From the NCBI RefSeq assembly GCF_001192835.1, contig NZ_DF968183.1, positions 1,199,338 to 1,263,337 on the forward strand: DNA of 64,000 nucleotides. The letters run 5' to 3'. Below the pieces are notes generated by a model. It saw only the letters and a list, made by a program, of their open reading frames with translations, searched no databases and was not told the DNA's origin. Origin of the DNA: Lentimicrobium saccharophilum (GTDB taxonomy: Bacteria > Bacteroidota > Bacteroidia > Bacteroidales > Lentimicrobiaceae). Position 1 is the stretch's first letter, and each line of letters starts with the position of its first letter. Below, piece after piece: positions 14,446-64,000 of this stretch. Both the position numbers and the translations under genes were made by a program.

Positions 14446-17400
14446 TTATTTAAAAATATCCTTCAGATCTTCGGGAATCATCATCTTTGATTTGAACTCT
14501 TCAAGCAGCGCCTGTTGTCCGTATGCTTCTGCCCATTCCCACACTCGTGACATAACAGCGTAGGCCTGCATGCTGTCTTCCTGGTAGTAAGATGCAAATG
14601 CAGGTTCCACTGAATTATAATAGTTCAGGTTCTCAATATAGATACCGGCGATGGTACGGATAAAATCATTGGCTTTTTCAGTGGCACCGGCTTTATAGTA
14701 AACCTCGGCCAGTGGCAGCATATAGTAGTCAAAAGTGATCTTGTTGTTCGGGAACTCAGCCAGGCAGCGGTCCGCAACAGCCACGGCCTCAGTATGCTTA
14801 CCTTTGCGCTGCAGTGCCTGGGCCAGGCGCATGTAATTCTGCTTTGGCATCATGGAATTGCGGTAGCTTTCACGATCCACATAAACTCCCGGCTGGTTCA
14901 GGTTACCCCATTTGCAATTATTCATCAATATATCGTATGAAGCTTCTGCATCAATACCGCCCAATCCGGGAACATAATCTTCGGCCAGCACAGGAATAAA
15001 CTTATACACAATACCCGTGAGATGACAGTATTTATCGATATCGAGCACTTTGCTTACACTTCCAGGGCTGGCAAAATACAGGGGCCGCTCCCAGTTACTG
15101 GTTGCCAGGAAGTCCATCAGCATCAGATCGTTCTTATAGAGGTAGTTGCTCCTGACGTCCCATTCAATCACCGGTACGATGCTGTCGGCCATATAGGCAG
15201 GAACTACTCCGCTGCTGACCGCCCTGGCTGAATCTACCGTTAATTTCAGTTTTTTGGTAGGGAAATAATTGATCCGCTCCCCGCTTTGAAGGGTCACTTT
15301 ACTGCGGGCCGATTCGTCGGCAATAAAACCGATCAGGTCTTTCAATTCCACCCGATCAGTGACTTCTCCCCTGCTGAAATAAGGAAGAAACTCATTCACT
15401 CCTTTATTGTATTGTTCAGGAGTCAGTGTAAAACTGAGGGGTTCTGAGTCGTAAATCTTACGCGCCAGCTGATGTACATACCAGTCACCGGATGAAAGCA
15501 TATAATTCACTACGCGGATATCCGTGCGGATGCCCTCCACCTCCTGGGCGTACCACAAAGGGAAAGTATCATTATCGCCATTGGTAATCAGTACAGCGTT
15601 GGGTGCACAGGAATTCAGATAGTTGGCAGCAAAATCGCGGGCCGGATATTTACCGGAACGATCATGGTCATCCCAGTTTTCGACTGCCATGATTCCGGGC
15701 ACCAGTACCAGGCAAACCGCTGTTATTCCGCCGGCGACCGCAAGCTGACTTACTTTCAGCCTTTTGGTGACTGCCTCATAGAGTGAGAGCACTCCAAGTC
15801 CGATCCAGATCGCGAAAGCATAAAAGGAGCCTGCATAGGCATAATCTCTTTCCCTCGGTTGAAACGGCGTCTGGTTCAGGTAAAGCACAATGGCGATGCC
15901 AGTCATAAAGAACAGCAGTGCCACCACCAGACCATCCTTGTAATTCCGGTTGAAATGGTAAAGCATGCCTACCACGCCAAGGATCAAAGGCAGCAGGTAA
16001 TAGGTATTGCGGGCGGGGCTTTGCATACTCTGCGGCAGGTCGCTTTGCTTGCCCAGCCTGGCTTCATCAATAAAATTAATGCCGCTGATCCAGTTGCCGT
16101 TACTGATTCCCCCGTGCCCTTCTATATCATTCTGCCTGCCGGCAAAATTCCACATAAAGTAACGGAAGTACATATGGCCGAGCTGATAACGGAAAAGGAA
16201 ACGCATGTTTTCTCCGAAAGTCGGCCTGATGATGGTTTCAGGTTCCCCGCTGTTATTGGTGGCTGCGATGGGAATCCCCTGTATCTTTCCCCAGCTTTTA
16301 TAAGCCCGGACATGGTTATCCTGCGAACTCCACATACGCGGAAAAATCGTGGTGAACTTCGGGTCGTAGTTCGGAATTGAATTTTTACGCGCGTCGGTGA
16401 TCACATATTTTCCCGATTTTTTATCCCGGATATATACCGGCGAGCCATCCTTGTAGGGATCCTGCGGATCAAGCGGAGCGCTGTAATATTGCCCCTGGAA
16501 TAGCGGCCATGTGCCATATTGCTCACGGTTGAGATAGGAAAGCAGACTGATGGCATCGTCAGGATTGTTTTCGTTGATCGGGGTGTTGGTATTGGCCCGG
16601 ATCACCAACATCAGAAAAGATGAATAACCGATCAGGATAAAGGTAAGTGCCAGCAACGCGGTGTTCGCAATCAGTTTTCCTTTGCGGCGCGTATATCCGA
16701 GACCAAAAACCAGCCCTGCCGTAATCAGTGCAAAATAGACCAGTGTCCCCGAATTGAAAGGTAATCCAAAAGAATTTACAAATAAAAGCTCGAATCTGGC
16801 TGAAAGGTCAACCACCCAGGGTATAATGATATACATGATGGCAGCCAGCAGGAAGATGGAAACAGTGCCGGTGAGAAAAATTCCCTTGGTGGTTGGCTTG
16901 TACTTCTTGAAATAATAAACAAACGCGATTGCCGGGATGGCCAGCAGGTTAAGCAGGTGAACCCCGATAGAAAGGCCTACCAGGTAAGCGATCAGCACAA
17001 TCCAGCGGATGCTGTGTTTCTCATCGGCATTTTCCTCCCATTTCAGAATAGCCCAGAATACCACGGCAGTAAAGAAAGAGGACATGGCATAAACCTCGCC
17101 TTCGACAGCCGAAAACCAGAACGAGTCAGAGAAAGTATATGCCAGCGCGCCCACCAGTCCGCTGCCAAGGATAACGGCCAGTTGAGCTTTCGACATTTCA
17201 TTGTCTTTCACGATCACTTTCCTGGCAAGGTGGGTAATGGTCCAAAAGAGAAATAATATGGTAAATGCACTCACAAGTCCCGACATAAAATTCACCATCA
17301 GGGCCACATTTTCGTTATTGCCGGATGCGAACAACGAGAAAAAGCGGCCTGCCATCTGAAACAGCGGTGCTCCGGGAGGATGGCCCACCTGAAGTTTAAA

Positions 17401-54931: not shown

Positions 54932-54994
54932 CCGCACCGCTGATCAGCCTTCATGTCTGCAAATAATGACGGCAAGCAGTCAGTTGTTATTGTC

Positions 54995-59857: not shown

Positions 59858-60304
59858 ATGACGGAACAAACGCCTGAAGACAATAAACGACAATTTTATA
59901 CCGGGAAACGCCCGCCAACACTCACCTTGCTTTGCATTCTATCCTTTATCGGGGGAGGGGGTACGGCCCTTTCGTCGCTGTTTGTGGTGATGGCTTACGA
60001 CATTATCCCCCTGGCGCTAAAGCAGATGCCCGTGCCTGAAGCTGAATCCATGCTTGAGCTCGTGCAGTCGGCGGGGAAAAACTTCTTTGTGGTTACAGGA
60101 TTGCTGAACCTGCTTTCACTTACCGGAGCCATCCTGATGTGGAAGCTCCGGAAAACAGGGTTTCATTTTTACACAATTGCCCAACTGCTGTTGCTTGCCG
60201 CTCCGCTGCTGATGATAGCAGGATATCAGATTCCGTTTACAACATTCCTTCTGACGGGAACTTTTATCCTTGGATATGGCCTGAATTTAAGGTTTATGAG
60301 ATAA
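59858..60304 (+). CDS. Small membrane protein, paralogue of the next gene
   Basis: A 148-residue protein with a polar N-terminus and about four membrane segments. The C-terminal part, GAILMWKLRKTGFHFYTIAQ then GTFILGYGLNLRFMR, is shared with the neighbouring gene at 60438. The family appears in Bacteroidota but has no assigned function that I know. The start is the ATG at 59858. Confidence 0.7.
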   Translation: MTEQTPEDNKRQFYTGKRPPTLTLLCILSFIGGGGTALSSLFVVMAYDIIPLALKQMPVPEAESMLELVQSAGKNFFVVTGLLNLLSLTGAILMWKLRKTGFHFYTIAQLLLLAAPLLMIAGYQIPFTTFLLTGTFILGYGLNLRFMR

Positions 60305-60360
60305 GTACCTGTTTAAAACCCACTGTTTATAAACAATTTTAACTTTTTTTCAACTACCTG

Positions 60361-60392
60361 TTGACATTCCGGAGTAATATTCCTTACATTAG
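60361..60392 (+). promoter_or_regulatory. Possible promoter of the second small membrane protein
   Basis: TTG (60361-60363), 21 bp, then TACATTAG (60385-60392), one mismatch to TAnnTTTG. It would start about 40 nt before the TTG start codon at 60438. Confidence 0.4.
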
Positions 60393-60437
60393 CCATGCCG
60401 TTTCAAACGGTAAAACAGGTTTTTAAATGAATATACG

Positions 60438-60845
60438 TTGAGCGACAACCATATTCTACCTAAACATTCCAACAATAACACCCTCTTTTTAAGGGCGCTA
60501 TGCATTTTTTCGCTGATTATTACAGGTTTCTGGGTCATTATTTACATTGCCTGTTCACTTGGTTTTAACCTTATTGCATCATCTCAGGAATTCTCCAACG
60601 CTCACCTGTTCTCCGGTTTCTCTGCCCTCCCTATGATCGGCTTCAGTCTGCTCGCGCTTACCGGAATTATCCTGATGTGGAAACTAAAGAAGCACGGTTT
60701 CTATCTCTATTTCGCTGCTCAATTCCTGCTCTTCAACTACCCCCTGCTCGTTTTCGGAACCGAACATTTTGATTTGAACGAATTGTTCTTTTCCTCTGTC
60801 TTTATCCTGCTTTTCGGGATAAACCTGAGATACATGAAAAATTAG
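60438..60845 (+). CDS. Small membrane protein, paralogue of the preceding gene
   Basis: A 135-residue protein with four hydrophobic segments that appears to start with TTG (no in-frame ATG lies near the N-terminus). It shares GIILMWKLKKHGFYLYFAAQ and VFILLFGINLRYMKN with the gene at 59858; the N-terminal halves are diverged. This is a tandem duplication or an old paralogue pair. No function known. Confidence 0.65.
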   Translation: MSDNHILPKHSNNNTLFLRALCIFSLIITGFWVIIYIACSLGFNLIASSQEFSNAHLFSGFSALPMIGFSLLALTGIILMWKLKKHGFYLYFAAQFLLFNYPLLVFGTEHFDLNELFFSSVFILLFGINLRYMKN

Positions 60846-61187
60846 TTTCGGAATAAACCGGAAATACTTTCGTGCTGGTGGAATTCCAACTCCGGAACTG
60901 ATGGAATACTTGTAAATCAATGTTACCAATCTAGATATCAATTATTTGGGTCACCAATATAATTTATAAATTGGTCAAAGCATTGATTGTTGCTGATGTT
61001 TCGGAAGAAAAAACAATGATTCAACATTAATTATTTGTTAATTTTGTTGTATCAGGTACCGGAATTTATTATAAATTGCACCAACTAATGAAAAACTAAC
61101 CTAAAAAGGAGGTCCTCTGAGAGAAGTAACACCTTAAAACCAACCAACACCAGTCACGAAATTTTACCTAAACAATTATTGTTTAAC
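60846..61187. other. Leader/promoter region of the interrupted SusC gene
   Basis: About 340 bp without a gene. It holds a -7 element at 61039-61046 and, further on, AAGGAGGTCCTCTGAGAG, which could form a small hairpin. I read it as the original upstream region of the SusC gene, now split from it by the insertion sequence. Confidence 0.5.
61039..61046 (+). promoter_or_regulatory. -7 element, probably of the SusC-type gene
   Basis: TAATTTTG matches TAnnTTTG; the -33 is weak. Without the insertion it would lie about 165 bp before the SusC ATG, a usual leader length for such genes. Confidence 0.45.
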
Positions 61188-61196
61188 ATTTTACTC
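61188..61196 (+). repeat. Left target-site duplication of the IS4 element
   Basis: ATTTTACTC, repeated at 62514-62522 directly outside the other terminal repeat. Confidence 0.85.
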
Positions 61197-61292
61197 CATT
61201 ACTGTCCCATTAAAATATTAAAAAGTTCTTTGAAATATTTGAAATTTAGTTAGTTACATGCGTTTTTCGATTAAACGGATTTCAATTTGCAC

Positions 61293-61321
61293 ATTTGCAA
61301 TTCTTAGAAAAAATTGCAAAT
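61293..61321 (+). repeat. Inverted repeat covering the transposase start
   Basis: ATTTGCAATT (61293-61302) and AATTGCAAAT (61312-61321) are perfect 10-bp arms with a 9-nt loop. The right arm includes the first two bases of the ATG at 61320. In mRNA this hairpin would hide the start codon. Confidence 0.75.
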
Positions 61322-62483
61322 GCATAAGGATAAATACGTTTTCGCCCAGCTAACATCTTTCTTGGATAGGAATAAGTTCAACTATATTGTCCGCAAATAT
61401 GACGGGGACAGATATGTTAAACACTTCACTTGTTGGAACCAACTTCTTTCCCTGATGTTCGGACAATTGTCAAACCGTGAAAGTCTCAGGGATTTGGTTG
61501 TCGCGCTTGACGCCCATCACTCCAAAGCTTATCATTTGGGTTTGGGCAAGAACGTATCAAAATCATCTCTGGCCAGAGCCAATCAAGACAGGGACTACCG
61601 CATCTTTGAAGAGGACGCTTATTATCTGGTAAACGAGGCCAGACATAAACGGGCTTCTGACATCTTCAAACTTGGGGGCAATGTCTACGCTTTTGATTCA
61701 ACGACGGTTGACTTGTGCCTTTCCGTGTTCTGGTGGGCAAAGTTTCGCAAGAAAAAAGGCGGGATCAAAGTGCATACATTATATGATGTGGAGACAAAGA
61801 TACCGGCGTTTTTCCATATCACCGAAGCTTCGGCGCACGACTCTACCGCGATGAAAGAAATCCCCTATGAACCAGGATCATATTACATATTTGACCGTGC
61901 GTACAACCACTTCAAGATGTTGTACAAGATTCATCGGATAGAAGCTTTCTTCGTTGTCAGGGCAAAGAATAACCTCCAATACAAGACAATCAAATGGAAA
62001 AGAAGGTTGCCCAAGAACGTGCTTTCAGATTTAACTGTTGAATTGACGGGGTTTTATCCCAAACAATATTATCCAGAGCAACTTCGATTGGTCAAATATT
62101 GGGATGAAGAACAAAAACGCGAGCTGGTATTCTTGACCAACGCCACGCACGTTTCAGCGCTTCAAGTCGCCGAACTTTACAAGAACCGCTGGCAAGTCGA
62201 GCTTTTCTTCAAATGGCTGAAGCAACACCTGAAAATCAAGAAATTTTGGGGAACTACAGCAAATGCAGTTCGGATCCAAATCTACGTCGCTATGTGCACG
62301 TACTGCCTAGTAGCGATCGTCCAAAAAGACATGCGACTCGACAGAAGTACATACGAGGTCTTGCAGATCTTGGGCATATCATTAACAGATAAAACCAATC
62401 TTCTGGATCTGTTCGATAGAACTAAATTTCAAAATGACAAAGAACGTTTTAGGCTTAATGAGCCAAATTTGTTTAATTTTTAA
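61320..62483 (+). CDS. IS4-family transposase with DUF4372 N-terminus
   Basis: A 387-residue DDE transposase starting at the ATG at 61320 (a TTG two codons upstream is also possible). The N-terminal ~70 residues, DKYVFAQLTSFLDRNKFNYI to LSNRESLRDLVV, are the DUF4372 DNA-binding region; the catalytic core has Asp in VYAFDSTTVDL, Asp in YIFDRAYNHF and the exact YKNRWQVELFFKWLK, the Y(2)R(3)E(6)K signature of IS4 relatives. The frame is uninterrupted. Confidence 0.95.
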   Translation: MHKDKYVFAQLTSFLDRNKFNYIVRKYDGDRYVKHFTCWNQLLSLMFGQLSNRESLRDLVVALDAHHSKAYHLGLGKNVSKSSLARANQDRDYRIFEEDAYYLVNEARHKRASDIFKLGGNVYAFDSTTVDLCLSVFWWAKFRKKKGGIKVHTLYDVETKIPAFFHITEASAHDSTAMKEIPYEPGSYYIFDRAYNHFKMLYKIHRIEAFFVVRAKNNLQYKTIKWKRRLPKNVLSDLTVELTGFYPKQYYPEQLRLVKYWDEEQKRELVFLTNATHVSALQVAELYKNRWQVELFFKWLKQHLKIKKFWGTTANAVRIQIYVAMCTYCLVAIVQKDMRLDRSTYEVLQILGISLTDKTNLLDLFDRTKFQNDKERFRLNEPNLFNF

Positions 62484-62487
62484 TAAC

Positions 62488-62506
62488 GTCCCAGTTTTAA
62501 TGGGAC
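62488..62506 (+). other. Hairpin at the right end of the IS
   Basis: GTCCCA (62488-62493) and TGGGAC (62501-62506) form a 6-bp stem with loop GTTTTAA, 5 bp after the transposase stop. It overlaps the right terminal repeat and could hinder read-through towards the SusC gene, though no T-run follows. Confidence 0.5.
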
Positions 62507-62513
62507 ACTAGTG

Positions 62514-62522
62514 ATTTTACTC
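62514..62522 (+). repeat. Right target-site duplication of the IS4 element
   Basis: ATTTTACTC, identical to 61188-61196. It ends 16 bp before the ATG of the SusC-type gene. Confidence 0.85.
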
Positions 62523-62538
62523 ATCAAAAACACACACT

Positions 62539-64000
62539 ATGAGAAAATTTGCATTGATGCTTGCACTTTTGATTTTCGCCGGAGTGCAGGTAGTTCTGGC
62601 ACAAACCACCGTTACAGGTACGGTTTCCAGTTCAGAGGATGGCAAAGGCATTCCCGGAGCTACTGTACTTGTAAAAGGAACAACTGTTGGTCTCACCACC
62701 GACATGAGTGGGAAGTACTCCATCAACGTTCCCGCCAGCGGACGTATCCTTCAGTTTTCGTTTGTGGGAATGAAAACCAAAGAGGTAACCATTGGCAATC
62801 AGACAGTAATCAATGTAGTCCTTGATCCGGATATTATGGATATCGAAGGAGTTGTTGTTACTGCGCTGGGTATCAGCCGGGAGAAAAAATCTCTGGGTTA
62901 TGCCGTACAGGATGTAGGCGCTGAAGACCTTACCCGCACAGGCAACAACAGTTTGCTTGGCGCACTGCAGGGAAAAGTAGCCGGTGTCGAAATCAAGCCT
63001 TCGAGCGGTATGCCCGGCGCCTCTTCACAGTTTCAGATCAGGGGTGCCCGTTCATTTACCGGAAACAACACACCTTTGTATGTTGTTGATGGAATGCCTA
63101 TTTCATCAACCCCTGCTTATTCGACAGGAAACAGTGTTACCGGCGCAGACATTTCAAACCGTGCCATTGACATCAACCCCGCCGATATCGAGAGTATCGA
63201 AGTCCTCAAAGGACAGGCTGCAGGTGCTTTGTATGGCATCCGTGCTTCCAACGGTGTAATCATTATCACCACCAAAAGCGGTAAAAACAATAAGGTTGGC
63301 CGTCCGGTAGTTAACTTCAGTCATACCAGCAGTTTCGATCAGGTTTCAAGAACACCTGATTACCAGACCACCTATGCACAGGGTACCGGTGGAAACTATG
63401 TTCCGACCTCTTCTATGTCGTGGGGTCCGAAAATCAACGATCTGCCGAATGATCCCGTTCGCGGAGGAAATGTTGTTAATGACCTCACCAATGAATGGGG
63501 ATTGCAGGAAGGTAAATTCTATGTGCCCCAGCTTGATCAGGCAGGCCTTAATCCATGGGTTACTCCTCAGGTGTTTAACAACTGGGACGATTACTTCCAG
63601 ACAGGTTATACCATGGCCAATAACATCAGTATTTCCCAGGCTACCAATGAAGGTAACTTTTCTCTCGGTTTCAGCAATACCGAACAAACCGGTATCGCAT
63701 TAAATACCGGCATGACCCGTTACAATGTAAGGGCAAATGCCGAAAGAAACCTCAACAAGAATTTCACTACAGGATTTTCAGCCAATTATTCAACAGTAAC
63801 GATTGACAAGTTATCAGGTGCCAATGACGGTTCATTGGCCGGGGTGCTTGCAGCACCTTCAAGCTATAACCTGAAAGGTTATCCTTACCACAGGCCAGGC
63901 GAACCAACCCGTCAGATATATTATCGTGGCGGAAGTTTTGACAATGCTTACTGGGTTGAACACAACAACACCTTCAATGAAAACACCAACCGTTTCTTCG
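62539..64000 (+). CDS. SusC/RagA-type TonB-linked outer-membrane protein, 3' end missing
   Basis: The first 487 residues of a nutrient-uptake receptor that continues beyond the window. Signal peptide MRKFALMLALLIFAGVQVVL (cleaved near AQ); a carboxypeptidase-regulatory-like domain (about 23-95, GKGIPGATVLVKGTTVGLTT); then the SusC plug with GKVAGVEIKPSSGMPGASSQ, FQIRGARSF, PLYVVDGMPI and the DIESIEVLKGQAAGALYGIR block. SNGVIIITTKSGK ends the plug and the barrel follows. A SusD lipoprotein should follow outside the window. The IS4 element stands directly upstream, separating the start codon from its probable promoter. Confidence 0.93.
   Translation, partial: MRKFALMLALLIFAGVQVVLAQTTVTGTVSSSEDGKGIPGATVLVKGTTVGLTTDMSGKYSINVPASGRILQFSFVGMKTKEVTIGNQTVINVVLDPDIMDIEGVVVTALGISREKKSLGYAVQDVGAEDLTRTGNNSLLGALQGKVAGVEIKPSSGMPGASSQFQIRGARSFTGNNTPLYVVDGMPISSTPAYSTGNSVTGADISNRAIDINPADIESIEVLKGQAAGALYGIRASNGVIIITTKSGKNNKVGRPVVNFSHTSSFDQVSRTPDYQTTYAQGTGGNYVPTSSMSWGPKINDLPNDPVRGGNVVNDLTNEWGLQEGKFYVPQLDQAGLNPWVTPQVFNNWDDYFQTGYTMANNISISQATNEGNFSLGFSNTEQTGIALNTGMTRYNVRANAERNLNKNFTTGFSANYSTVTIDKLSGANDGSLAGVLAAPSSYNLKGYPYHRPGEPTRQIYYRGGSFDNAYWVEHNNTFNENTNRFF

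Follow-up and report, generated by a model that had tools for sequence, protein, structure and literature searches.

A recent IS4-family insertion in the leader of a SusC-SusD operon may switch off a receptor at a locus with apparently exchanged alleles

The right-hand end of the window, by which we mean the whole 64,000-nucleotide stretch of DNA analysed here (genome G000), carries a gene for a SusC/RagA-type TonB-dependent receptor, preceded by a leader that an insertion sequence has entered. The features, in order along the window, are as follows.

61031-61196, + strand: upstream part of the SusC leader, with promoter-like motifs, AAGGAGG and, at its end, the left target repeat; 98% identical to the leader of the related genome G013 (query 1-165)
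61034-61037 and 61043-61046 (TTTG) and 61070-61079 (TATAAATTGC), + strand: promoter-like motifs, assigned by eye and by motif conservation
61106-61112, + strand: AAGGAGG motif in the upstream leader
61188-61196, no strand: left 9-bp target repeat ATTTTACTC, recognised by sequence identity with the right copy
61197-62513, + strand: IS4-family insertion sequence, 1317 bp, with ends CATTACTG...CACTAGTG
61292-61322, + strand: hairpin with an 11-bp stem, its 3' arm holding the transposase ATG (61320-61322), from folding energies against shuffles
61320-62483, + strand: transposase gene, 387 aa from the ATG (open reading frame list, NF033592 and Pfam); a TTG start at 61314 is possible
62488-62506, + strand: subterminal hairpin GTCCCA-GTTTTAA-TGGGAC at the right end (z -2.84 for 62440-62538), with no T run after it
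62514-62522, no strand: right 9-bp target repeat ATTTTACTC, identical to the left copy
62514-62538, + strand: remnant of the native leader, the 25 bp immediately ahead of the SusC ATG (no difference from G013 over query 157-201)
62539-64000, + strand: SusC/RagA-type TonB-dependent receptor, first 487 of 1064 codons; the gene runs past the window end and is whole in L010:5877-9071

The receptor begins with a signal peptide (residues 1-22, by eye), followed by a CarbopepD_reg_2 domain that forms the N-terminal extension, or NTE (25-107), and a plug (116-240), both from Pfam. It scores 608.3 bits against TIGR04056 (cut-off 368.25) and lies next to a SusD-family lipoprotein (PF12771, 201.5 bits, cut-off 27), the pairing that characterizes SusC/RagA TonB-dependent receptors. 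The initial annotation had spoken of a polysaccharide-utilisation-type locus, a description that finds no support: a search of 12 flanking and operon proteins from window position 54953 to L010 position 17031 (against general protein-family libraries, for some of them NCBIfam only) recognised no carbohydrate-active enzyme, and the best solved relative of SusC, Bt2264 (E 2e-102), belongs to a complex that holds peptides. Bt2264 is part of the Bt2261-64 SusCD complex of Bacteroides thetaiotaomicron (PDB 5fq6-5fq8), for which an extract of PMC7782687 gives a peptide ligand. The SusD partner differs in this respect, as it best matches another SusD homologue, 3fdh.

The insertion sequence is placed in the IS4 family (DUF4372 + DDE_Tnp_1 type) by its transposase, which scores 283.5 bits against NCBIfam NF033592 (cut-off 115) and matches DDE_Tnp_1 and DUF4372 in Pfam, and by its ends, which combine imperfect terminal inverted repeats (19 bp at 89%) with 9-bp target repeats. 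It shares with the family AT-rich target repeats and a structure at the transposase start, and differs in that the target repeats of 24 copies (the element and its relatives) are 77% A+T, loosely ATATTAAAT. A second copy elsewhere in G000 (G000:C1:232756-234072) confirms these boundaries; it differs at 3 of 1317 bases and has its own 9-bp repeat, TGATTAACA. A repeat search of 60900-62700 returned three inverted pairs, with all arms within the element or at its ends. As initially annotated, and exact to the base, the element ends 25 bp before the SusC ATG (62539), from which the right target repeat is 16 bp away, with transposase and SusC both on the + strand.

Comparison with relatives bears out the proposed empty site. 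The reconstructed join of 61196 to 62523, taken as a 17-base string across the join, is present exactly in G013 and G004 (a count from forward-strand rows, with the minus-strand loci L015, L016, L019, L021, L022, L024, L026 and L027 left out), and the final 40 bp upstream of the ATG in these two genomes equal the reconstructed G000 sequence. As a DNA query, the G013 leader found matches in 18 of 19 genus genomes. In G000 alone is the match split, into query 1-165 and 157-201, the overlap being the 9-bp repeat; in all 17 other genomes with a leader match it runs uninterrupted across the insertion point, although in 7 of them it covers just the last 48-63 bp. The insertion at this site is private to G000 among the 19 genus genomes compared. 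It is also recent, because four full element copies in three genomes show 1-3 pairwise differences per 1317 bases, against a dS of 0.06-0.31 over five host genes for G000 versus G013. Thus, in one Lentimicrobium-type lineage, the untranslated leader of a SusC-SusD operon has recently received an IS4-family element by transposition. By itself such an insertion is an ordinary natural mutation, and it is useful because the exact empty site in two relatives makes its effect measurable.

The insertion lies inside the 5' leader, as had been suggested, cuts the SusC start codon off from the promoter region and from most of the conserved leader, and is private to G000, so that it likely alters SusC expression. 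The promoter motifs (for which a Bacteroides consensus is quoted in an extract of PMC9330008) were assigned by eye, and a simple scan does not single out this site. A known RNA in the leader was considered and rejected: an Rfam search of 60300-62800 gave five matches (E 5.6-7.9), none near the gathering score, and the predicted fold of the leader is not more stable than those of shuffles (z +1.28).

The initial annotation had offered two outcomes, a silent receptor or one driven by transposase read-through; the first, with SusC off or strongly reduced, is most likely from the sequence, and a third had been missed, namely that the native promoter region, intact upstream, could read through the element. 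Useful transposase read-through is argued against by the hairpin at the transposase start, which occurs in 20 of 22 distinct elements, this copy included. A first set of 18 chosen from 25 elements (this one and 17 relatives) had it in every case, with a mean z of -3.59 against dinucleotide shuffles (-2.10 for this copy). The seven elements added later comprise three near-identical copies with the hairpin and four further distinct elements, two with it (L086 and L158, z about -2.0) and two without (L072 and L100); the latter two also have no ATG at that place. Support for the hairpin is from single-sequence energies only, in that the formal test for covariation, RNAalifold on an automatic MAFFT alignment, predicted no consensus pair. 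Its position near the ATG is uninformative, being found in 18/18 elements yet in 3049/5400 shuffles as well.

On balance, we lean towards the reading that this recent insertion switches the receptor off or strongly down, at a locus with apparently exchanged SusC-SusD versions. In an RNA that begins at the native promoter, the hairpin would form across the transposase start, and about 1.2 kb would therefore stay untranslated and open to Rho-dependent termination before SusC, if Rho dependence is assumed for the genus. Nor was a strong outward promoter seen at the right end. If a surface receptor is lost where exchange is frequent, selection by phage, bacteriocin or nutrient change would fit, though neutral hitch-hiking could also account for it. 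The genes for SusC, SusD and the third protein are all intact, with dN/dS of 0.07-0.11 against G013; so soon after an insertion no decay would be expected, and these values therefore cannot tell off from on.

It is fairly unlikely that the native promoter instead reads straight through the element, giving a longer 5' UTR in which leader control is lost and expression is not abolished. The promoter region is intact, and the sole + strand terminator-like site found in the element, at 62452-62464, has a stem of just 5 pairs (three sites on both strands of 60300-62800, 2.1 expected). Intrinsic termination is not indicated at the right end either, because the subterminal hairpin there (present in most of the nearer relatives, disrupted in L003 and L071 and missing from most distant ones) is not followed by a T run, and a transcript reaching SusC could be translated since the 25 bp next to the ATG are unchanged. 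Against this stand the hairpin over the transposase start, which predicts untranslated RNA and hence Rho polarity, and the displacement of the conserved leader by 1.3 kb from the start codon.

We also regard as unlikely the possibility that the element itself drives or keeps up SusC, whether from a (hybrid) promoter in its right end or by transcripts that continue past the transposase gene. Transposase mRNA is generally scarce. The transposase gene is co-oriented with SusC here, and its stop lies 55 bp from the SusC ATG. Two weak promoter-like matches occur at the right end (62423 and 62474), but the motif evidence is marginal, as they are equalled in 44/1000 mononucleotide and 115/1000 dinucleotide shuffles, and the scan has little power, with one match on the native leader. 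An outward promoter may nonetheless be present. An extract of PMC9330008 does list IS-borne promoters in Bacteroides, with IS1186 or IS4351 driving resistance genes. Co-oriented gene starts lie within 60 bp of the right end in 5 of 24 copies with a target repeat (L177 counted although flagged inside an ORF; L070, with its ATG 50 bp from the right end, classed inside an ORF and left out), yet divergent starts lie within 60 bp of the left end about as commonly, in 6 of 24 (including L148, likewise flagged inside an ORF), which does not point to promoter activity as a reason for the survival of copies; a mobile-promoter orientation bias was accordingly rejected. Many element copies have gene starts close by.

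The 24-copy set derives from 62 loci screened for target repeats, several at the same place, with no-repeat, duplicate-place and no-match loci dropped; a target repeat was required (one has 1 mismatch), and transposase identity is 52-100%. Targeting of SusC leaders by the element was considered and rejected, since the remaining copies examined lie at AT-rich sites with different target repeats. Element surveys, each with its own cut-offs and with G000 counted, were positive in 18/60, 13/393, 3/395, 2/395 (queried with a relative's element) and 33/344 genomes (queried with protein); their copy numbers are lower bounds, few candidates being scored per genome. Reversal by excision, which had been suggested, appears doubtful: precise excision is not known to be typical of IS4 elements, and this transposase copy bears a private Tyr-to-Asp change (base 61614, codon 99 counted from the ATG) at a residue that is Tyr or Phe in 40 and Ile in 2 of 43 distinct rows, this copy counted.

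The locus into which the element moved is itself variable. The genus carries at least five SusC/SusD versions here, lying between the same flanking genes, with barrels as low as about 30% identical between versions, and the trees of the front, the barrel and a flanking gene conflict. The trees used 21 of 22 operons, leaving out G009.2 (cut at 415 aa); G003 (111 aa) and G001 (a 373-aa fragment) stand outside the operon set, and the tree of the flanking gene hutH1 was usable in 15 of 17 genomes, with none from G012 or G005. In several lineages the head (leader, signal peptide and N-terminal domain) goes with the flanking genes and the remainder (TonB box, plug, barrel and SusD) with the allele, the switch lying near codon 107, close to the NTE/TonB-box border; elsewhere in the genus, head and allele move together. 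The flanks also vary: hutH2 is not shown in G002, G006, G007 and G008, G006 is without MATE and aminotransferase, G004 is without aminotransferase in the stretch seen, and the G010 and G013b contigs lack flanking genes. Tandem pairs of operons occur in some genomes. G013, a metagenome bin that could mix species, has two alleles, and the ends of its contig C28 match C130 like an assembly bubble.

From the conflicting trees we infer that SusC-SusD versions have been exchanged by recombination, with the switch near the NTE/TonB-box border in several lineages. Ordinary descent with a slowly evolving leader and N-terminal domain and a fast barrel is very unlikely: it would account for the fall in median identity over 210 pairs (signal 0.86, NTE 0.74, barrel 0.31), for two allele clades that front data do not reject (p 0.32 and 0.07) and for a front tree that, like the barrel, keeps G018.1 with G014.1 and G015.1 with G009.1, but the G008-G017 pair is reversed (NTE 0.64, barrel 0.85), front and hutH1 both group {G002,G007,G008} and reject the barrel's {G008,G017} (p 4.6e-5 and 1.3e-6), and barrel data reject {G000,G013,G004,G013b} (p 1.7e-56) and {G002,G007,G008} (p 2.5e-71).

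It is tempting to speculate, as a tentative extension of exchange by recombination, that the locus is one docking site, probably for peptide receptors, at which a head fixed by the host in many lineages (leader, signal peptide, NTE) would receive tail cassettes (TonB box, plug, barrel, SusD lid and an optional third lipoprotein) from a genus-wide pool of at least five types, swapped near codon 107 under selection, for example by phage. The insertion sequence would then be one means by which a lineage silences its current cassette and retains the site. The hutH1 tree supports the part of this in which the head follows the host; the picture is held back by the lineages in which the head travels with the allele.

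A variable locus of this kind is not without parallel. In the rag locus (RagA/RagB) of Porphyromonas gingivalis, as described in an extract of PMC11817032, there are four alleles, the N-terminal part of ragA is highly conserved and horizontal transfer has been proposed. Both systems have alternative alleles at a single SusC/SusD-type locus, with signal peptide and CarbopepD_reg_2 conserved and receptor and lid differing. The locus described here differs in being spread across a genus, with the divergent barrels and tandem operons noted above, and perhaps in that the non-coding leader is common to alleles too. Alternative SusC/SusD states at one site are also known from Bacteroidales invertible regions and shufflons, which an extract of PMC10939037 places near SusC/SusD genes. 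Set against that account, no site-specific recombinase was recognised among the searched operon neighbours here, and the inverted pairs in 60900-62700 are confined to the element and its ends.

The surrounding locus is of more interest than the insertion itself. It suggests that rag-type allele exchange, known from an oral pathogen, also takes place across an environmental genus, with a sharp head/tail boundary in several lineages. Two questions thereby become testable: one concerns the function of the leader and the conserved N-terminal extension, the other the forces behind the exchange of receptors in Bacteroidota.

The 1317-bp element, whose transposase is of the IS4 family, occupies 61197-62513 with 25 bp between its right end and the SusC ATG at 62539, as the initial annotation had placed it. 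Perfect copies of the target repeat ATTTTACTC flank it at 61188-61196 and 62514-62522, and its ends are independently fixed by a second copy in the source genome (G000) that has a target repeat of its own. The landing place was a TTTACTCATCAAAAACACACACT stretch conserved in the leader, the untranslated DNA before the SusC ATG. The predicted join of 61196 to 62523 is found exactly in two other members of the genus, G013 and G004. A search with the G013 leader gave matches in 18 of the 19 genus genomes, the exception being G001, a 79%-complete bin. In all 17 matched genomes other than G000 the match runs unbroken over the insertion point (in seven of them it covers the last 48-63 bp only), and only in G000 is it split, by exactly the target repeat. 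The annotation had set its account against a junction common to relatives and against the lack of any relative joining the two positions; the element junction is absent from relatives, and related genomes do make the join.

The interrupted operon and its neighbours are as follows:
Upstream of the operon: hisS and two histidine ammonia-lyase-like genes
SusC (ATG at 62539): 1064 aa, TIGR04056 at 608 bits
After SusC: SusD-like_2 protein, operon member
Third operon protein: 265 aa, no Pfam match
Downstream of the operon: MATE exporter and ornithine aminotransferase

We tentatively favour a SusC gene that the insertion would have turned off or strongly reduced. The initial annotation allowed for silence or read-through of the transposase transcript, which is incomplete: because the insertion spared the promoter region, with its TTTG and TATAAATTGC motifs (61034-61079), as well as the leader as far as 61196, native read-through and a new promoter are, beside transposase read-through, also routes to SusC mRNA. 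Read-through from the native promoter is possible, but 20 of 22 distinct elements (window copy counted; transposase identity 52-100%) have a hairpin that overlaps or borders the start codon of the transposase, with a mean z of -3.59 in 18 of them, and in the two elements that lack it the ATG is missing from that position. In IS10-like elements, start-codon structures stop translation of transcripts from outside. Such a hairpin would leave 1.2 kb of the native transcript untranslated, and this could invite Rho termination before SusC. For a new outward promoter at the right end the evidence is slight in either direction. A motif scan gave two weak hits there, a number that 44 of 1000 shuffles reached when mononucleotides were kept and 115 of 1000 when dinucleotides were, and one hit on the native leader. 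Copies of the window element and of related ones show no bias in orientation. The intactness of SusC, SusD and the third gene and their dN/dS of 0.07-0.11 cannot tell recent silencing from continued use. The right end also carries a subterminal hairpin (62488-62506), the inner mirror of the terminal repeat, which most nearer relatives retain, some of them carrying changes in each arm.

Most operons resemble one another over the 40 bp that precede the ATG, and 16 of 22 leaders contain AAGGAGG, 86-111 nt upstream of that codon (that of G013b, a second G013 operon, is cut there). The window copy (61106-61112) is Shine-Dalgarno-like and, on empty-site DNA, lies about 107 nt ahead of the SusC start; Shine-Dalgarno-type sites are seldom used in this phylum. 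The leader gave no credible match to Rfam and no unusual structure on folding.

The element is a recent arrival, because any two of its four full-length copies, of which G000 has two and G013 and G004 one each, show 1-3 differences in 1317 bases, against a dS between G000 and G013 of 0.24-0.31 for hutH2, SusC and SusD, 0.13 for the MATE gene and 0.06 for a lipoprotein-like gene, and because the target repeat is perfect. The window transposase may be inactive, since it has a private Tyr-to-Asp change (window 61614) at a position where Tyr or Phe occupies 40 of 43 distinct rows and Ile two others; the suggestion that the insertion might be reversed by excision is thereby weakened, although other copies could act in trans. 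G000 also holds three copies of a second IS4-type element, 58% identical (L180, L181 and L182, at G000:C2:387357, C1:1743780 and C1:1513095), each with a 9-bp target repeat, and a decayed copy of the window element, 82% identical (L003, G000:C1:2771826-2773139), at which the pattern test used found no target repeat.

The best solved relative of SusC is Bt2264 (5fq6, E 2e-102), followed by a SusC homologue of the Bt1762-63 levan system (5t3r, E 2.8e-45). Bt2264 belongs to the Bt2263/64 complex, described with bound peptide in PMC7782687, and no carbohydrate enzyme was recognised among 12 proteins searched. A polysaccharide-utilisation-type locus is thus not supported, and a peptide transporter is the likelier candidate. 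On locus L010, which holds the whole of SusC, a phospholipase-like protein (15976-17031) adjoins an IS1595-type transposase; it scores 168 bits against the CBASS lipase model, short of the cut-off of 200.

Across the genus, different SusCD operons lie between largely the same flanks, hutH on one side and MATE and ornithine aminotransferase on the other (loci L184, L185 and L187-L202); hutH2 was not seen in G002, G006, G007 and G008, and G006 has neither MATE nor aminotransferase. On a conservative count, this one locus has at least five versions of SusC/SusD, with a common leader and N-terminal domain; clustering the barrels near 70% identity yields eight or nine types. G004 is 95-97% identical to G000 in hutH1, hutH2, a 148-aa gene and MATE, but only 53% in SusC and 38% in SusD. 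Further types occur in G012, G011, G015 and G005, tandem operons (.1 and.2) in G018, G014 and G015, and a second SusC, truncated where the contig ends, in G009. Between G000 and G004, identity is 0.98 in the leader, 0.95 in SusC residues 1-100 and 0.49 from residue 240 to the end, against 0.67, 0.68 and 0.85 between G008 and G017. DNA identity of G000 and G004 per 100 columns falls from 93 to 78 and 53 at +174, +274 and +374. By domain, the identity of this pair is 0.91 for the signal, 0.96 for the N-terminal extension (NTE), 0.67 for TonB box and early plug and 0.48 for the barrel, placing the switch close to the NTE/TonB-box border.

PMC11817032 describes four alleles of ragAB in which the N-terminus of ragA is conserved, and PMC5266723 reports allelic exchange of surface proteins, RagAB being among the variable ones; a limited literature search found no account of such a locus in Lentimicrobium, and we claim no absence. 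In G013, allele A, the type of G000, lies on contig C130 (L185) and allele B on the 4951-bp contig C28 (L186), whose first 130 bp are the C130 leader region and whose last 41 bp are C130 sequence past the operon; its last 157 bp match C130 at 96% and G000 at 99%. Assembly could produce this pattern from two alleles at one site, though a bin may combine several strains or species.

Trees of the front DNA (-120 to +330) and of the barrel, each of 21 operons, conflict. G002, G007 and G008 group in the front tree (support 100/99) and in the flanking hutH1 protein tree of 15 genomes (99/97), which also unites G000, G013 and G004 (99/97), whereas the barrel tree, made by a quick method with long branches flagged, groups G008 with G017. 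With p values that are optimistic because groups were chosen after identities were known, hutH1 data reject {G008,G017} (1.3e-6); front data reject {G008,G017} (4.6e-5) and {G002,G006} (7e-4), reject the allele-A clade marginally (0.038), and are compatible with {G004,G013b,G010} (0.07), {G012,G011,G015.2} (0.32) and {G000,G013,G004,G013b} (0.28), although G014.2 and G016 fall within the last of these in the best front tree; and barrel data reject {G000,G013,G004,G013b}, {G002,G007,G008}, {G007,G008} and {G013,G013b} (p <= 5.4e-6). Several observations count against a simple host-fixed head: the front pairs G018.1 with G014.1 and G015.1 with G009.1, like the barrel; G014.2 and G016 have the allele-A NTE (residues 1-100 0.93 versus G000) with leaders at 0.69; and the two G018 leaders are just 0.77 alike. 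Because of these exceptions, the crossover point appears to vary, the head having come along with the allele in some lineages.
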